DNA from: a virus | Virus record (IMG/VR): IMGVR_UViG_3300027734_000282 | Span: 1-26,036 of that record | Strand: one strand, 5' to 3' | DNA: 26,036 nucleotides | Translations under genes and position numbers: made by a program | The notes under the pieces: generated by a model | What the model was told of the DNA's origin: nothing | Databases searched by the model: none | Seen by the model: only the letters and a program-made list of their open reading frames with translations | In this document: one piece after another, positions 481-8,216 of the stretch | Layout of the letters: every line of letters begins with the position of its first letter | How positions within the stretch are numbered: position 1 is the stretch's first letter

Positions 481-635
481 TATTTATTCTTTTTAGCCGT
501 TTTAGCAGAGTCTTTAAAATCTTTAGCAGTTGGCGCGCCTTTAGCACCAGCTGATCTCATTTTCTCACCTGAACCAGCGGCGATACGTTTTTGTTTAGCG
601 TGAATATTGGCATATAAGCCAGGTTTAGTTGCCAT
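480..635 (-). CDS. Small basic conserved phage protein, 51 aa (DUF6321-like)
   Basis: A 51-residue, lysine-rich protein lies between the large terminase and the portal. It contains GLYANIHAKQKRIAAGSGEK and a GAPTAKDFKDSAKTAKKNK tail. I recognise this as a small phage family usually found beside terminase or portal genes, probably the one catalogued as DUF6321; the number is from memory. No catalytic motif is visible. The high positive charge fits binding to DNA or to the portal/terminase complex, but that is inference. Both ends use one-base TAATG overlaps with the terminase stop at 635 and the portal start at 480. It therefore has no independent ribosome site and is probably translated by re-initiation at roughly terminase-like levels. 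Confidence 0.85.
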   Translation of the reverse strand: MATKPGLYANIHAKQKRIAAGSGEKMRSAGAKGAPTAKDFKDSAKTAKKNK

Positions 636-2161
636 TATGATCCCATCCAAGAGTTAAGTATTGCGCCTTGACTTTGATACGTATGTTTCTGAATTATACC
701 TTTAAATTCTCGATGTGCAACAGGAAATGCAAAAGTTAATGCAATAGCGTCTGCAGCGTCAGGTGAGGCTAGTCCTCTAGCCCTCATGTCTTTCTTCGAT
801 TCCAAGAAAATAGACCCTTTACTGTCAGGCTTCATCATAGGCGATATCAGATCACTTTTCAAGTATCTGTCTGGCGGAATCGATGCCGATTTCAACCACT
901 CCCTCATGTCGCCCCACATCTCAGCGCGCTTGTTGCCGTACATCATGCCGTTCTTTGCCTTGTTCCCAAAGTTCACACCCTTGATCTTGTACCGTTGCTC
1001 TTTTAGCCGATCCACCACACCTGCACCCAAACCGCCTTCGTCAATGTTGACCAGCGCTGGTTGGTACTGCTCGATGGCCTCAATCACACGTCCAACTGTT
1101 TCCATTGTATCGTCACCTTTGTGCCGTTTGATGGCAATTACATCGCGCCCTTGTCTAACAGCTATAACCGTTGAGTCTGAGCCAAACCGTGCAGGGTCAA
1201 CCCCAATAATAATTGGTGCAGTCTCATCTTTGTACTTCTCACGTTCCATCGCTTCATCCACGATGCTCACACTTATGAACTGATCATCCGATGCGTTGGG
1301 GAACATACCGTACACTTCAACGTGCGCTTGTACCGAATCAGATCCATACTCGTCAATAATCTGCTCATACACGTTTTTGTCTGTGCCTTCTACCTGCCTG
1401 GCGTCAATGTTGCGATTTTTCCAAAACTCACGTTTAGAATGAAACGCCTCATAGAAGTACCCACTATTACGTCTTGGGTTACTAAACGCCAGCCAAAACC
1501 TGTTCGGCGTGTTCTCTGTAAAGAACCCCGATGTCACCGACCAGATGGAGTCATCAATACCTGACGCTTCGTCAAAGATGACCATTACACCGTCGTAGTT
1601 GTGTACCCCAGCGTAGGCGTCAGGATTCTCAGCCGACCACAGTCGCCCTTCAACTCCCCAATAACGGGTGCCTTTCTTAAGGTCACGCTCGACTAACTCA
1701 GTCAGCCATTTAGCAGGCATGACTCGTGTTGCTGACACTTCGAACCAATGGCTGTTGATGGACATACTTAACCACTTAGTTATCTCGGCCCATGTGACAG
1801 AGCGCAGCTGCGACTCACTATTAGCCGACACGATGATGGTCGCACCTATCCTTGTGGACAGCATCCAATGCTCAAGCCAACTAACCAGCGCCGACTTGCC
1901 AATACCACGACCAGACGCCACCGCTTCACGCAGTACGTCAAAGTCTACCTTGCCTTGGTTCTGTTTGATATGCTCGGCTATGTCTAGCAAGATCTCACGT
2001 TGCCATTTGCGTGGGCCTGTAAAGTTTTCAAGTGGCGTACCTTTTTCACCCCAAGGATAGCAGTACATCACAAACGCCAATGGATTGTCCTTAATCGCTG
2101 GACTCCACAGCCGTGACATTAACTCTTGTTCGTCTTGCGCTGAATAGATGGTTGTTTGCAT
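635..2161 (-). CDS. terL: Terminase large subunit (packaging ATPase/nuclease)
   Basis: This 508-residue protein is the motor that drives DNA into the procapsid and cuts the concatemer. The N-terminal ATPase has a Walker A motif SGRGIGKSA at residues 83-91, a Walker B VMVIFDEAS at 192-200 with the acidic pair D197/E198, and a coupling motif LAFSNP at about 224-229. The C-terminal RNase H-like nuclease shows its three acidic clusters: D322 in GVDPARFGSD, D374/E375 in NIDEGG, and D468/D471 in SPDAADAIAL. The length is typical. The start at 2161 overlaps the preceding stop by one base (TAATG). It acts with the portal two genes downstream and with the putative small subunit two genes upstream. Confidence 0.95.
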   Translation of the reverse strand: MQTTIYSAQDEQELMSRLWSPAIKDNPLAFVMYCYPWGEKGTPLENFTGPRKWQREILLDIAEHIKQNQGKVDFDVLREAVASGRGIGKSALVSWLEHWMLSTRIGATIIVSANSESQLRSVTWAEITKWLSMSINSHWFEVSATRVMPAKWLTELVERDLKKGTRYWGVEGRLWSAENPDAYAGVHNYDGVMVIFDEASGIDDSIWSVTSGFFTENTPNRFWLAFSNPRRNSGYFYEAFHSKREFWKNRNIDARQVEGTDKNVYEQIIDEYGSDSVQAHVEVYGMFPNASDDQFISVSIVDEAMEREKYKDETAPIIIGVDPARFGSDSTVIAVRQGRDVIAIKRHKGDDTMETVGRVIEAIEQYQPALVNIDEGGLGAGVVDRLKEQRYKIKGVNFGNKAKNGMMYGNKRAEMWGDMREWLKSASIPPDRYLKSDLISPMMKPDSKGSIFLESKKDMRARGLASPDAADAIALTFAFPVAHREFKGIIQKHTYQSQGAILNSWMGS

Positions 2162-2709
2162 TAACGACCTAAATTAAGTTTAACTGACCTACCCGTACCA
2201 GGGGGTATTTTTTCGCCTGCATAATCGCGAATTAACCCATAAGGCCCAAATGCGCCATAATCGCCTGTTCGGACTTCTTGTGACGCGTTTTCTTGCGGAG
2301 GGTTAAAATCGTAAATATCAACAACTTGCATATTACCGTTTGCATCGCGTGCATAACGAAACCGCCCTAAAGTAGTTTGAATATTTCCTAATGGATCACC
2401 CATAGAAAATAATCCTGGCGTAAGCGACGCGGGCGTTTTACCTTGTTTTTGCATTTCTTTTCCTAATAACGCGTAATCACCATATTTAATGCTTCCACTA
2501 TCCCCACCTTTAAGCATTATTAATTGACGAATAGCTTCAATTTCTTCGGGTGAAAAATGTGTTTCAGTTATTGGCGATTTAATACCTTGCGCGGTTTCTA
2601 TTAATGTGCGAGCAGAAGTAGGAAATCGTTGTGGGTTTAATCTTTGCACACCAAAGTCAATTAAACGATTAATACCTGTAACTTGAGGTGCAAGTTTATT
2701 TTCTGCCAT
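2161..2709 (-). CDS. Unrecognised phage protein between the terminase genes, 182 aa
   Basis: I do not recognise a defined domain. The protein is soluble, with no signal peptide or membrane segment. Its middle includes HFSPEEIEAIRQLIMLKGG and a GDYALLGKEM segment. The C-terminal third reads RFRYARDANGNMQVVDIYDF, then YGLIRDYAGEKIPPGTGR. That tail reminds me of C-terminal segments in other phage proteins of unknown role, where a strand-rich region ends in a short conserved tail. It is tied by one-base TAATG overlaps to the small terminase upstream and the large terminase downstream, so it is co-translated with both. Position alone suggests a role in packaging or virion assembly; nothing in the sequence proves it. 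Synonymous bases favour A/T like its neighbours, with no sign of recent transfer. Confidence 0.75.
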   Translation of the reverse strand: MAENKLAPQVTGINRLIDFGVQRLNPQRFPTSARTLIETAQGIKSPITETHFSPEEIEAIRQLIMLKGGDSGSIKYGDYALLGKEMQKQGKTPASLTPGLFSMGDPLGNIQTTLGRFRYARDANGNMQVVDIYDFNPPQENASQEVRTGDYGAFGPYGLIRDYAGEKIPPGTGRSVKLNLGR

Positions 2710-3167
2710 TACGCCACCTTTTCTTTAAGCTTATGTTTCACGTGGATCATAGGTTGAGCTTCTACTTCCTTAAATACGCCTTCAATCACTCTAGTCTGTG
2801 CTTGCTCAAGTGCTTGCGTGATAGAGATGCGTTGCTCAACGTCAATCGATAACTGCTGCTTAGCCACCCAGCCATGTTGATGCTTTAAGACTTCAAGCGC
2901 GGACTTAGCGTCGCCAGCAAGTGCAGCATCACGCAACACGTTTGCCATTTCAGCTTCGCCATCTGCACGACCTTTTAATTCTGCCATTTCAGCAATTGGG
3001 TCTAATTGGGTGAGTTGTCGGTATTCAGTAGGCAACATTCCAGATGCAAGCGCTAAAGAATCACCTTTTAGTCCTAGCTTTGATGCATGGTATATCCTCT
3101 CTAACCTCGCCTCTGTTGCTTCGAGCTTGCGAACCTCATAAGGGAAAGATTGAAAATTATCAAACAT
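2709..3167 (-). CDS. terS: Terminase small subunit (putative)
   Basis: This is a 152-residue, mainly helical protein. An N-terminal helix-turn-helix-like region includes LKGDSLALASGMLPTEYRQL (about residues 33-52). An acidic helical middle follows, and then SALEVLKHQHGWVAKQQLSI, which resembles the oligomerisation segment of phage small terminases. In that family a ring of subunits recognises the packaging site and activates the large subunit. The identification rests on helical character, size and place as first gene of the packaging operon two genes before the large subunit. No Shine-Dalgarno sequence precedes the ATG at 3167 (the upstream bases read ATTCCAAA), which is unlike the other operon-leading genes here. 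There is no good alternative start nearby. A non-terminase DNA-binding protein remains possible. Confidence 0.8.
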   Translation of the reverse strand: MFDNFQSFPYEVRKLEATEARLERIYHASKLGLKGDSLALASGMLPTEYRQLTQLDPIAEMAELKGRADGEAEMANVLRDAALAGDAKSALEVLKHQHGWVAKQQLSIDVEQRISITQALEQAQTRVIEGVFKEVEAQPMIHVKHKLKEKVA

Positions 3168-3195
3168 TTTGGAATATTAGCATATTTTCTAAAAA

Positions 3196-3225
3196 ATAAA
3201 AAATTGTTTGTAAACGCTCCGTCAA
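3196..3225 (-). promoter_or_regulatory. Candidate promoter for the packaging operon
   Basis: On the minus strand TTGACG (3225-3220) is followed after 18 bases by TTTTAT (3201-3196), which matches four of six bases of a sigma-70 minus 10 element. Initiation would fall near 3190, about 20 bases before the small terminase ATG. The minus 35 is good and the minus 10 weak, as expected of a late promoter needing help or of a chance match. Confidence 0.35.
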
Positions 3226-3307
3226 CACAAGGCCCTTGGCTGTGGCCCTGGGGGGGGTGTCTAAAAGCAAACAGTTTTTTGCTGGCGGGCGTCAGGGCGC
3301 CTGGCAC

Positions 3308-3648
3308 GTGTAAGCAATGTTAGCATTGTAAGTCATGGTTTTTTAATTGATAGCATACGGGCGCCTAGCTTATGAATGTAAGTCATATAAGCATTTAGTT
3401 ATTAGTATGCTTACCTTACTTACAGTCATGGCGTGAAAATACATGGCGTGGAAGTGTAGGCAATGTATGCAATATTGTCACTCATTTTTAATTGGTCACG
3501 TTCACTGTCATATTACTGTAATATTTAATCTTATTAAATAGGTAGATAAAGATTACTTACAATGCTTACATTCAAGCTCCATAATGCTTTCATGCCAATT
3601 ATGGCCGCTTACAATGCGCTTACATTCGACTTACACAATACTTACAAT
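3308..3648. repeat. Cluster of CTTACAATGC-type repeats (iteron-like)
   Basis: The 10-mer CTTACAATGC occurs exactly at 3556-3565 and 3608-3617, and inverted at 3323-3332. Shorter CTTAC(A) copies on the plus strand begin at 3410, 3415, 3419, 3565, 3619, 3630 and 3641. TGTAAG copies in the opposite orientation lie at 3309-3314 and 3377-3382. The left copies mostly point one way and the right copies the other, on either side of the AT palindromes at 3510-3540. Spacing in the right group is about 9-11 bases, close to one helical turn. Such arrays normally bind a replication initiator or a cooperative regulator; which applies here is unknown. Confidence 0.75.
3510..3540. repeat. Two overlapping AT-rich palindromes
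   Basis: ATATTAC-T-GTAATAT (3510-3524) has perfect 7-base arms around one base. TATTTAAT-CTT-ATTAAATA (3522-3540) has perfect 8-base arms around three bases. They share three bases and sit between the two groups of CTTACA repeats. The first looks like an operator. The second would melt easily and could serve as an unwinding element if this is an origin. Confidence 0.65.
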
Positions 3649-3690
3649 TAACTATTTTTAACTTTATTTGCTTAAATGCAACAAAATACG

Positions 3691-3719
3691 TTGCAATAGT
3701 GTTTTTTATGTGATACCCT
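3691..3719 (+). promoter_or_regulatory. Candidate promoter of the small early-type operon
   Basis: TTGCAA (3691-3696) and TACCCT (3714-3719) are separated by 17 bases, and a TG dinucleotide at 3711-3712 makes an extended minus 10 (TGATACCCT). Transcription would start near 3726, leaving about 60 bases of leader before the ATG at 3786. The promoter lies just downstream of the repeat cluster, so a protein bound there could regulate it. Confidence 0.45.
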
Positions 3720-3785
3720 AAACCCTGTAGTACAGCAACACAAGAAAACAAACAGCAAGTAAACAATCAATTAAAGGAAAGTAAA

Positions 3786-4832: not shown

Positions 4833-4937
4833 ATGAAACAACCTAATAAATGGGATTACATCATCGGCGGCCTATTTATGGCCGTTTTAGGCGCGTTATT
4901 GGCGCTTGTTTACGTTTATAAAACAGGAGGTTTTTAA
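4833..4937 (+). CDS. Small single-pass membrane protein, 34 aa
   Basis: An ATG follows TAAGG by eight bases and reads 34 codons to TAA. The polar start MKQPNKWDYI leads into a hydrophobic helix, IGGLFMAVLGALLALVYVY (about residues 11-29), and a KTGGF tail. The last codons GGA GGT also supply the strong AGGAGG site for the next gene, so the two are physically interlocked. It is the second tiny membrane protein in this operon. Function is unknown. Confidence 0.6.
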   Translation: MKQPNKWDYIIGGLFMAVLGALLALVYVYKTGGF

Positions 4938-4938
4938 T

Positions 4939-5625
4939 ATGAATATTCATTTAACTATTAAGAGCGCCAATGCTAAAACAGGGCCTATCCCTGTTAGTAC
5001 TTCAAGCGCGAGTACTTGTCCTAGTGATTGTCCATTTAATAATTCTAATGGATGCTATGCAAGCGGCGGCCCTTTAGCTTTACATTGGGCAGCTGTGACG
5101 CGCGGCGATCGCGGCGATAACTTCGCGGATTTTTGCGACAAAATAGCAGCGCTGCCAGATAACCAATTATGGCGACATAATCAAGCGGGTGATTTGCCTG
5201 GTAATGGCCGCGATATTGACGGCGCGGCGCTAGGTGATCTAGTGAAAGCTAATCAAGGCAAGCGCGGCTTTACATATACACATTACAATCCAGGCAATGG
5301 TAAAAACGCGGCCTATATTAAGGGATGTAATGACTTCGGATTTACTGTTAATTTAAGCGCCAATACGCCGCATCATGCGGATCAATTAGCAGCGCTTAAT
5401 ATTGGCCCTGTCGTAACTGTATTGCCAATGGATCAAGTAAATAATACGTATACGCCTGGCGGTCGCAAAATAGTAGTTTGTCCTGCGACAATCCGCGATG
5501 ATGTGAGCTGCAGCACTTGTAAGCTCTGTTCGATCCGTGATCGGGATATCATTATCGGCTTCCCAGTTCATGGATCACAACACAAAAAAGCCGCGCGTGT
5601 ATTCAATATTCAATCAATCAATTAA
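4939..5625 (+). CDS. Cysteine-rich conserved phage protein (DUF7227-like)
   Basis: A 228-residue protein starting at ATG 4939, chosen because AGGAGG lies eight bases upstream; an in-frame TTG at 4906 lacks such a site. I recognise the family from many phages and plasmids (I believe DUF7227, distantly like the Gp88 family): opening LTIKSANAKTGPIPVSTSSA, then WRHNQAGDLPG (about 78-88), RGFTYTHYNPGNGKNAAYIK (109-128) and GFTVNLSAN (134-142). Cysteines cluster at 27, 31 and 39 (CX3CX7C) and at 181, 191, 194 and 197 (CX9CX2CX2C), suggesting one or two metal or iron-sulfur sites. The alternating strand/helix pattern fits a barrel. No function is established to my knowledge. Codons are clearly richer in GCG, CGC and GGC than those of its neighbours, hinting at a different origin. 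Confidence 0.85.
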   Translation: MNIHLTIKSANAKTGPIPVSTSSASTCPSDCPFNNSNGCYASGGPLALHWAAVTRGDRGDNFADFCDKIAALPDNQLWRHNQAGDLPGNGRDIDGAALGDLVKANQGKRGFTYTHYNPGNGKNAAYIKGCNDFGFTVNLSANTPHHADQLAALNIGPVVTVLPMDQVNNTYTPGGRKIVVCPATIRDDVSCSTCKLCSIRDRDIIIGFPVHGSQHKKAARVFNIQSIN

Positions 5626-5884: not shown

Positions 5885-5912
5885 GGCCCGCTTTATGCGG
5901 GCCTTATTATTT
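5885..5912 (+). terminator. Intrinsic terminator of the plus-strand small-gene operon
   Basis: GGCCCGC (5885-5891), loop TTTAT, GCGGGCC (5897-5903) form a perfect seven-pair GC stem, followed by TTATTATTT. It lies between the converging plus operon and the primase-helicase gene, whose stop codon (5907-5909) falls in the T-rich tail. On the opposite strand the stem is followed by ATTGTTT, so weak bidirectional action is possible. Confidence 0.88.
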
Positions 5913-8216
5913 AATCTTTACTGTTTGCGCAGCTGGCGGATCTTCCACAGCTCGGCGCAGCTCACTCTTACTCAATATATGTGCAAGCTCGGGCGCGCAA
6001 TAGATATGCTTTTTAGTGGTGTAATCACGCGAAGCTATACGACCGCAATCGATCCACCCTGCCTCTTTAAGCGCGTGCAATAGCGCGGCCTGCGGTACTT
6101 TGACGCCGCTAGGGGCAGCGCCTGCCAGGCGATCACATAACGCATGGAAGGGTGATCCTATAACCCCCCTTGTGAATTCCCCCTTACGGTCTCTTAGCAT
6201 TTCAACCAGATAGCTTTCGGCCATGCTCATTCCATGCTCAACTAGGTTCGCTTTAAATTCAGTCATCATTGGCGCAGCTGATGGGTTGAATCCCCCTACA
6301 TCACGCTTATGTAACCACGCTGAAATCGATTCAAATCCCCCTTTTCTATACCAAGCCCATAATGCACTCGCACGCTTGGTATCCATGCGCGGTGCAGCAG
6401 ACCATACGCAAAACCAGCGCCTATCTTGTGACGCTAAACTAATCGGCACAGGGTCATTACTAAACGCTAAAACGAACACCCTATTAGCCATTTGGTAGGG
6501 ATGCAAACCCTTACGGTTAATCGGTAACATTTCAGGCGGTGCGGCAATGATTGGCTTAAGTTGGTTAGCCAATTGCCTGCGAGCTGCAGCGTCAGGTTCT
6601 TTTAATTCGTTAATGAGTAATATCTCGGACTCTAATTGATAACCCCATTGGCTATTAATAGAGTTATTATCCATAATCCCCCTATTTTTCAGGTGACTAC
6701 CACAGACCGCCCATATAAACGGCGCCCACATCGTATCCTTACCGCTCCCCTCATCACCCCCATGCAAGACAGCGTGATTAATCTTAAGTTCAGGGTATTG
6801 CACCTTAAACGCCATAATGTTCAATATATGGTCTAACTCGGCAGGCTCAGGCACCAACTCACGACAATGGTCTAGCCACGCTGAAATCGAAGGCGCACTA
6901 GCAGTTACGCTCGACACGTCTGGACGTGCATCACGCCAGCGATTGCCAAACAGATCACCATCACGTGACACAATCACGCTCTCACCTGCAGCGTACGTGA
7001 TACCTACAAGTGCCTTGGCGCCCATCGCCTGACGGTTTTCATCAAAGCAATTGCTAGGTAGGATACGAGTACCAGAGTGTATTGACTTGCAATCAATATG
7101 ACGAAACAACGCATTGAACGTCTGTCTTGATATTTCACGCCTATCTTGCATATCAAAATAGGACTCATCGTCTTGCACATAGGCAAACCGCTCATACCAT
7201 TGCGCCTTCTCAACACGTCCAAGCTCTTTACGCTCAACTTCAGCAATAACGGCGGCGGCGTCATCTGTAAATACCTCAGATGGACTGATTTTAGACAACG
7301 CAACATTCATTGCCTCAGCAATCAAGTCATCACGCAAACCATGATTGACTGTTGGGCCACCATTGTTAGCAACCCACGCTAAAAACGACTTGGAATCAAA
7401 ATCAACACAATGGGAATGTAAGCAACAGTATGAACGGTCAAGAGGCTTGTAACGCCCTTCAGGATTACCGTCGGTATGCTCTGCATTGTTAGGGCAGATA
7501 ACGCTTAACCACCCTTCGCCATTAATTTTGGACAAGATGAGGCCTTGATTGTTTAGCCATGCTAACACGTCATCATCGCCATTGTCTACCAAACGCAAAG
7601 GTGTATAGTGGTTAGTATCAGCAGGGGCAGGCGTGACATCTAAAGCATAACAAATTTGTTCTATTGTGTATTCGTGTGTAGGGTTGAACTGTATTAACTT
7701 GGATACAAAGTTATCACGTCCAGGCTTTAAATTAACAGAACCTGGCAGACGCACATTACGTACGGCATTGGTCGCACCTGCGTCTGTATAGCCTGCCTGT
7801 GCAATCGCTTTGACGGCTGCAGTAAACTCCCCTTTGGTTGGCTGCTCTGAAAACGCATAGCCGTATTGGAAGTTCCCCTCTGACGTTTCTAATATCCATG
7901 TCGGTGCAAGTGGTGGCACTTTGGACTTGGTGCCAATGTCATCAAGCATCATAAATAAGACATATTCGCAGTTGGCTGCACTTGCAGATATGCGCCCATC
8001 TTGGAAGCGATCAATAATAAATGATGCAGTATTGACGTACCAAGCCTCGCCATCACGCATCTTCTGACTAGGTAGATAGGCAGGCCATGTACATTTAATA
8101 GCACCATCGGCGTGGAATTGCATAACACCGTCTTTTAATTGTGGTTTTTGTCTAACAATTAACGCAGTTTCTCCCTGTGGCGCTAATTGTGTGATATATT
8201 CTAATAAGTTTTGCAT
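5907..8216 (-). CDS. Primase-helicase (PrimPol-type primase plus SF3-like helicase)
   Basis: A 769-residue replication enzyme. The N-terminal part resembles RepB/PrimPol-type primases: an acidic MMLDDIG motif at about 89-95 and RNVRLPGSVNLKPG at 153-166. A probable zinc-binding region follows, with C241, H247, C264, C265, H267, H269 and C270. The C-terminal ATPase is of the superfamily 3 type seen in DUF5906 proteins: Walker A GGDEGSGKDT (486-495), Walker B EILLINE (531-537), motif C FVLAFSND (581-588) and an arginine-finger candidate in QDRRW (597-601). It should open DNA at the fork and lay primers for the polymerase encoded just upstream. GGAAGGA about ten bases before the ATG supports the start. 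The last 300 bases are visibly richer in GC. Confidence 0.92.
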   Translation of the reverse strand: MQNLLEYITQLAPQGETALIVRQKPQLKDGVMQFHADGAIKCTWPAYLPSQKMRDGEAWYVNTASFIIDRFQDGRISASAANCEYVLFMMLDDIGTKSKVPPLAPTWILETSEGNFQYGYAFSEQPTKGEFTAAVKAIAQAGYTDAGATNAVRNVRLPGSVNLKPGRDNFVSKLIQFNPTHEYTIEQICYALDVTPAPADTNHYTPLRLVDNGDDDVLAWLNNQGLILSKINGEGWLSVICPNNAEHTDGNPEGRYKPLDRSYCCLHSHCVDFDSKSFLAWVANNGGPTVNHGLRDDLIAEAMNVALSKISPSEVFTDDAAAVIAEVERKELGRVEKAQWYERFAYVQDDESYFDMQDRREISRQTFNALFRHIDCKSIHSGTRILPSNCFDENRQAMGAKALVGITYAAGESVIVSRDGDLFGNRWRDARPDVSSVTASAPSISAWLDHCRELVPEPAELDHILNIMAFKVQYPELKINHAVLHGGDEGSGKDTMWAPFIWAVCGSHLKNRGIMDNNSINSQWGYQLESEILLINELKEPDAAARRQLANQLKPIIAAPPEMLPINRKGLHPYQMANRVFVLAFSNDPVPISLASQDRRWFCVWSAAPRMDTKRASALWAWYRKGGFESISAWLHKRDVGGFNPSAAPMMTEFKANLVEHGMSMAESYLVEMLRDRKGEFTRGVIGSPFHALCDRLAGAAPSGVKVPQAALLHALKEAGWIDCGRIASRDYTTKKHIYCAPELAHILSKSELRRAVEDPPAAQTVKIK

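Follow-up and report, generated by a model that had tools for sequence, protein, structure and literature searches.

A repeat array in the non-coding region directly upstream of terS is very probably the replication origin of a phage whose own primase-helicase would use its C-terminal domain to bind the repeats (iterons), the variable bases being read by residues 728-734. The array was analysed in a stretch of viral DNA of 26,036 bases, hereafter the window. The source is a podovirus-like phage, and the annotated viruses nearest to it are podoviruses that have not been cultivated and whose head genes are P22-like. In sequence comparisons covering about 240 of its relatives, the word repeated in the array can be predicted from a few residues near the C-terminus of the primase.

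The non-coding region at 3168-3785 divides the leftward terminase operon from a small rightward early operon. Between the TerS and TerL genes lies a 182-aa ORF of no assigned family (2161-2709, minus strand); of the 136 loci collected first, only 3 have a homologue, which in L047 sits at a different place. A DUF7227 protein (PF23872, E 1e-89) is encoded at 4906-5625 on the plus strand, and only some of the relatives have one.

Within the 618-bp intergenic region, CTTACA was found in 10 copies and CTTAC in 12, compared with 0.51 (maximum 3) and 1.3 (maximum 6) expected from 2000 dinucleotide shuffles. The entire window contains 51 copies of CTTAC/GTAAG, of which 12 are located at 3310-3645, and the densest non-overlapping 350-bp segment elsewhere holds about 3. 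The 10-mer CTTACAATGC occurs exactly three times in the window, always inside the array (3323-3332, minus; 3556-3565 and 3608-3617, plus). The initial annotation was correct in counting three copies of this 10-mer, one of them inverted, and about twelve of CTTAC(A) in 340 bases, and the enrichment over the rest of the record, the lack of which it had said would refute it, was found. A better description of the repeat unit is the 9-mer ATGTAAG[C/T]A, with about 15 sites in the array. An AT-rich core separates seven forward sites and one inverted pair, on the left, from six reverse sites on the right, in agreement with the earlier description of left copies pointing mainly one way and right copies the other. 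Neighbouring sites are 9 bp apart on the left and at 3554/3563, and those at 3606-3639 follow one another at 11 bp (Table 1; the copy at 3417 was read by eye from the sequence). The two AT palindromes reported for the core are real, but not perfect as had been claimed, since they are interrupted by a 1-nt centre (3510-3524) and a 3-nt centre (3523-3539).

Table 1. Coordinates of the array, its neighbours and the proposed initiator in the window.
Feature	Position	Strand	Remarks
TerL gene	635-2161		leftward terminase operon
TerS-like gene, left neighbour of the array	2709..3167	-	array directly upstream of terS
Left iterons 1-3 (GTGTAAGCA, ATGTTAGCA, TTGTAAGTC)	3308..3334, starts 3308, 3317, 3326	+	9-bp spacing
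Left iterons 4-5 (ATGTAAGTC, ATATAAGCA)	3376..3393, starts 3376, 3385	+	9-bp spacing
Inverted iteron pair (AGGTAAGCA, CTGTAAGTA)	3408..3425, starts 3408, 3417	-	9-bp spacing
Degenerate iteron pair (GTGTAGGCA, ATGTATGCA)	3454..3471, starts 3454, 3463	+	
AT-rich core, putative unwinding element, between both iteron groups	~3485..3545	.	conserved in close relatives
Right iterons (TTGTAAGTA, ATGTAAGCA)	3554..3571, starts 3554, 3563	-	9-bp spacing
Right iterons, four copies	3606..3647, starts 3606, 3617, 3628, 3639	-	11-bp spacing
Primase-helicase, 769 aa, proposed origin-binding initiator	5907..8216	-	RepB_primase PF16793 + DUF5906 PF19263
C-terminal domain, residues 664-745, proposed iteron-binding domain	5982..6227	-	AlphaFold, predicted winged-helix topology
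Wing loop, residues 728-735 (ASRDYTTK), proposed specificity determinant	6012..6035	-	

Scans with PolA and TerL yielded 136 viral loci, about 95 of which include the region upstream of TerS. Nearly all of these have an array at this place, with a similar layout and a different word; the words repeated among the relatives include TGTGGACA, CAAATTGTCA, TTTGGGTCAT, TGTTGGCTAT, ATTGTCA, TTGGGTCA and TGTGRGTCA, besides others. Alignment of the words on a shared TTGT was rejected, as their positional orientation was against it, and the consistent frame is TGT-xxx-CA. Between the window and locus L061, TerS is 100% identical and the flanks and the AT core are near-identical, whereas the iteron stretches have diverged and the words differ. 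In the close relatives the AT-rich core is kept and its palindromy is not, being broken in L023 and L005. On these comparisons the array is conserved as a structure and its word is not. The initial annotation had stated that loss of the array in close relatives keeping the flanking genes would speak against it; none of the close relatives examined still has the exact motif, but the array itself persists, built from a different word.

In a more distant clade (L133, L135, L139, L042, L044, L048 and L053), the stretch 0.1-0.4 kb upstream of TerS holds a second array, located between the iteron array and TerS, in which AAGTTAGTG/CACTAACTT form inverted pairs about 10-14 bp apart. In DSL-LC05 (L140:33500-33950), with a TerL 67% identical, many ACCCAGTGGGTCA repeats are present at the corresponding place to the right of TerS; this phage was discarded for comparison because its primase-polymerase is another one, so that it is not orthologous at the primase gene.

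The initial annotation had seen no initiator gene of known type, and this claim did not hold, as a primase-helicase is encoded 2.3 kb from the array and residues in its C-terminal wing predict the iteron word. In this 769-aa protein a primase is fused to an SF3/D5-like helicase, both PF16793 and PF19263 being detected by Pfam, and no TOPRIM (DnaG-type) primase domain was found by the same means. The fold of the helicase core matched the NrS-1 primase CTR (E 2e-18), SaPI5 Rep (7ola, 2e-7), PriRep1 and poxvirus D5/E5. The C-terminal domain is predicted by AlphaFold to be compact, with the order H-S-H-H-S-loop-S (pLDDT ~85-94), and its helix 709-719 is nearly invariant. Sequence and fold searches of this domain alone against the PDB gave nothing significant (best fold E 0.1, some of the weak matches being winged helices), and it had no Pfam match; the term 'winged helix' is thus based on the predicted topology. 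The residues linked to the word fall in the predicted loop between its last two strands, the wing.

As the binding partner must change when the word changes, the genes were screened for alignment columns tracking the word. Among 28 close-group loci, primase columns 728, 730, 733 and 734 separated the two main word classes perfectly (fraction 1.00), compared with maximum fractions of 0.17 for TerS, 0.13 for TerL, 0.24 for Pol, 0.24 for the NTase, 0.39 for the exonuclease, 0.15 for the VRR nuclease and 0.30 for the helicase. In an earlier run that included the class of the window, the top four of all primase columns for motif association were 733, 728, 730 and 734. The word tracks six primase residues within 728-734 and no other testable gene, the early genes E98 and DUF7227 beside the array being too patchy (7-8 loci) for a fair column test. 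A covarying regulator in the early operon was also sought, and rejected: of the 45 ORF families tabulated, none was universal or matched the classes.

A tree built from primase residues 1-640, with the C-terminal part omitted, requires at least 17 changes of word class. Some class labels (L008, L021, L053, L109, L116, L133, L139, L026 and L043) were set by hand. Well-supported branches provided 8 independent pairs, and in all 8 the combination of Lys728 and Asp733 accompanied the TGTGGACA class (p = 0.008); the contrast for class A was likewise consistent in 5 of 5 pairs, which are too few for significance. As judged from the tree, wing and word have been swapped together many times, in many independent switches. 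Some of these look like recombination of a short wing cassette, because the Ser729 codon is AGY in every close-group class A wing; it is TCN in all the others listed. Other switches are independent, as in L052, with the wing ASHDYPS and the word ATTGTCA.

The rule linking wing to word was fixed before new loci were fetched with three primase queries, which provided 144 distinct unseen loci. The rule made 91 calls among them, of which 87 were right, in the sense that the predicted word class was the most frequent one with at least 4 copies. Three loci were under the count threshold, having no class at four copies, and one, L185, contradicted the rule, with another class ahead by 4 to 3. As the blind-test loci are not phylogenetically independent, the independent-pairs test is the proper test of significance. 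Loci with wings outside the rule were mostly without known words and had new ones, from which further pairs were derived after the fact: M728 with TGT[T/A]AGTCAT, N728 with TGCACGTCAT, G728 with TGCGGGTAAT and ARE[F/H][G/S] with TGTTGGCTAT.

As the wing of the window, ASRDYTT, was unique among the loci, its codons were used for a pattern scan, which returned one other viral contig with this wing, L371 (37,719 bp), whose primase is clearly distant; its TerS is 66% and its TerL 82% identical to that of the window. This contig contains 12 TGTAAG in total. Six of them, first three forward and then three reverse, are packed into 353 bp immediately before TerS on its upstream side, and the remaining 6 are scattered across the other 37 kb. 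A TGTAAG cluster was sought in the contig of another locus, L372 (wing ASREYTT), and was not found. The exact wing-word pair of the window rests on two phages, the window itself and L371. This distant phage with the wing of the window also carries longer blocks (TGTTGGCAATGTAAGTCATGGTTTTTTGGCCGTAAGTTTC, twice, in L383, G001:C1:35500-35930) that join TGTTGGC and TGTAAG words and possibly represent an origin in transition between types.

The initial annotation had left the choice between an origin and a cooperative operator, by which a transcription factor would control the divergent terminase and early operons through the array. The position between divergent operons and the many spaced sites in both orientations fit such an operator, and binding of the primase-helicase could also repress nearby promoters, so that an operator role may hold in addition. 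As the explanation of the array it is nevertheless unlikely: none of the early-gene families is universal or follows the word classes, which the primase wing does, and an array of about 15 sites on both sides of a conserved AT core is more than operators typically have. The origin part of the earlier reading, with initiator sites around an unwinding element, is strongly supported over the operator part. It is somewhat more improbable still that the array and the 3' end of the primase gene, only 2.3 kb apart, were merely co-inherited by recombination while the array binds something else. The shared AGY codon of the class A wings does point to a cassette moved in this way, but simple linkage would produce a broad block of association rising towards the array, whereas the codon-level peak was confined to approximately residues 728-734 (about 7 codons), with a third-position signal of 0.48 compared with 0.09-0.17 around it, where silent positions stayed at background level, and was weaker in the codons closer to the array. 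In addition, phages that have diverged widely show the association too, as do independent cases (L052 against class A; L371 against the window), and the words of loci not seen before were predicted by the rule.

Two other roles appear highly improbable. The location directly upstream of terS would suit a packaging (pac) site bound by the neighbouring TerS, but TerS was rejected as the specificity protein because it is 100% identical in L061, whose iteron word differs, and no TerS column tracks the classes (maximum 0.17). An origin dependent on host DnaA, defined by DnaA boxes (TTWTNCACA) and a DnaA initiator, would be in line with the class B arrays, in which TTGTCCACA/TTATCCACA match the DnaA box and, in loci such as L088, L091, L020 and L060, are indistinguishable from it by eye, and with MW202483, which encodes a DnaA domain-IV protein. 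In the array of the window, however, TATCCAC/TGTCCAC were sought and none was found, and the array does not correspond to this definition; moreover, the words change with the primase wing. The protein of MW202483 (L141:31423-31719; Bac_DnaA_C, E 1e-17) stands alone in the early operon of a phage whose array word is ATGTAAACA, and it was discarded as a general binder, since homologues are absent from the window and from the other loci.

The identification of the primase-helicase as the binding partner of the array is strongly supported by the comparisons, from which we infer a direct protein-DNA contact, a functional origin, and melting and loading. In the proposed mechanism, the C-terminal domain of the primase-helicase would attach to the iterons, and its wing residues 728-734 would recognise the variable bases. 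Once several copies were bound, they would melt the AT-rich core (~3485-3545), load as a ring helicase and prime. This sequence of steps is proposed by analogy with P4 alpha, SaPI Rep and Cch2, and the mechanism would be of the same kind. Cumulative GC skew, which the initial annotation had suggested as a check, gave no support: in the window the curve falls overall and reaches its extremes at the two ends, not at the array, and in MW202483 the extremes are at 38.7 kb and 4.4 kb, with the array at 28.2 kb. GC skew is uninformative or negative for the origin site.

In P4 alpha, a winged helix binds the origin repeats (PMC4234260). This protein has a TOPRIM primase (PMC4234260), whereas that of the window combines a RepB-type primase with DUF5906; a natural series of word switches for P4 was not found described in the papers searched. 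The C-terminal domain of SaPI Rep and SCCmec Cch2 recognises iterons downstream of the gene (PMC7581432), and the window protein shares with them a helicase core of the D5-like kind, whose fold matched that of SaPI5 Rep (7ola). Like origins of the P4-alpha/SaPI-Rep type, the window has short non-coding iterons flanking an AT-rich region. In contrast, the SaPI origin is directly downstream of rep and the array of the window is 2.3 kb past the primase 3' end, beyond the small early operon, and unlike SaPI it belongs to a free phage.

Covariation of initiator domains with iterons is already known from PLE satellites and geminiviruses (PMC8263062, PMC2974675). In the PLE satellites of Vibrio cholerae, the RepA_N DNA-binding domain and the origin covary and are swapped as matched modules, for which selection by an origin-cutting phage nuclease has been proposed (PMC8263062). 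The PLE exchange involves an entire domain and two types, with three iterons of ~30 bp, whereas the group of the window has six wing residues, at least 10 words of ~9 bp and at least 17 changes; no RepA_N domain was present among the Pfam matches of the window proteins scanned. In the iteron-related domain of geminivirus Rep, a few residues covary with short iterons and are changed together by recombination (PMC2974675), but this is a rolling-circle protein of plant ssDNA viruses, unrelated to that of the window in protein and mechanism. No report of such covariation for phage primase-helicases was found in the open-access papers searched. On the sequence comparisons, what appears new is the scale and number of types, the confinement to the wing loop, the wing-to-base code, its predictive power and the repeated matched switching.

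For a large phage group that is almost entirely uncultivated, the analysis locates the probable origin and the probable initiator; many relatives have arrays that resemble DnaA boxes and might be mistaken in annotation for host-DnaA origins. It also raises the question of what selects for repeated switching of origin specificity. Tentatively, and as a possibility about which we are rather doubtful, the origin may be a compatibility locus, at which the wing cassette of ~7 codons travels together with its matching array from one phage backbone to another; the resulting types of replication specificity would prevent relatives or satellites that infect the same cell from sharing or hijacking each other's initiator, and the variants would form a readable amino-acid-to-base code of the wing. 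The group represents a natural specificity experiment, in which the protein and origin backbones stay nearly constant while the wing occurs in dozens of types, each having its own word; a 115-aa domain and short oligonucleotides would allow the wing-to-base code to be tested directly.
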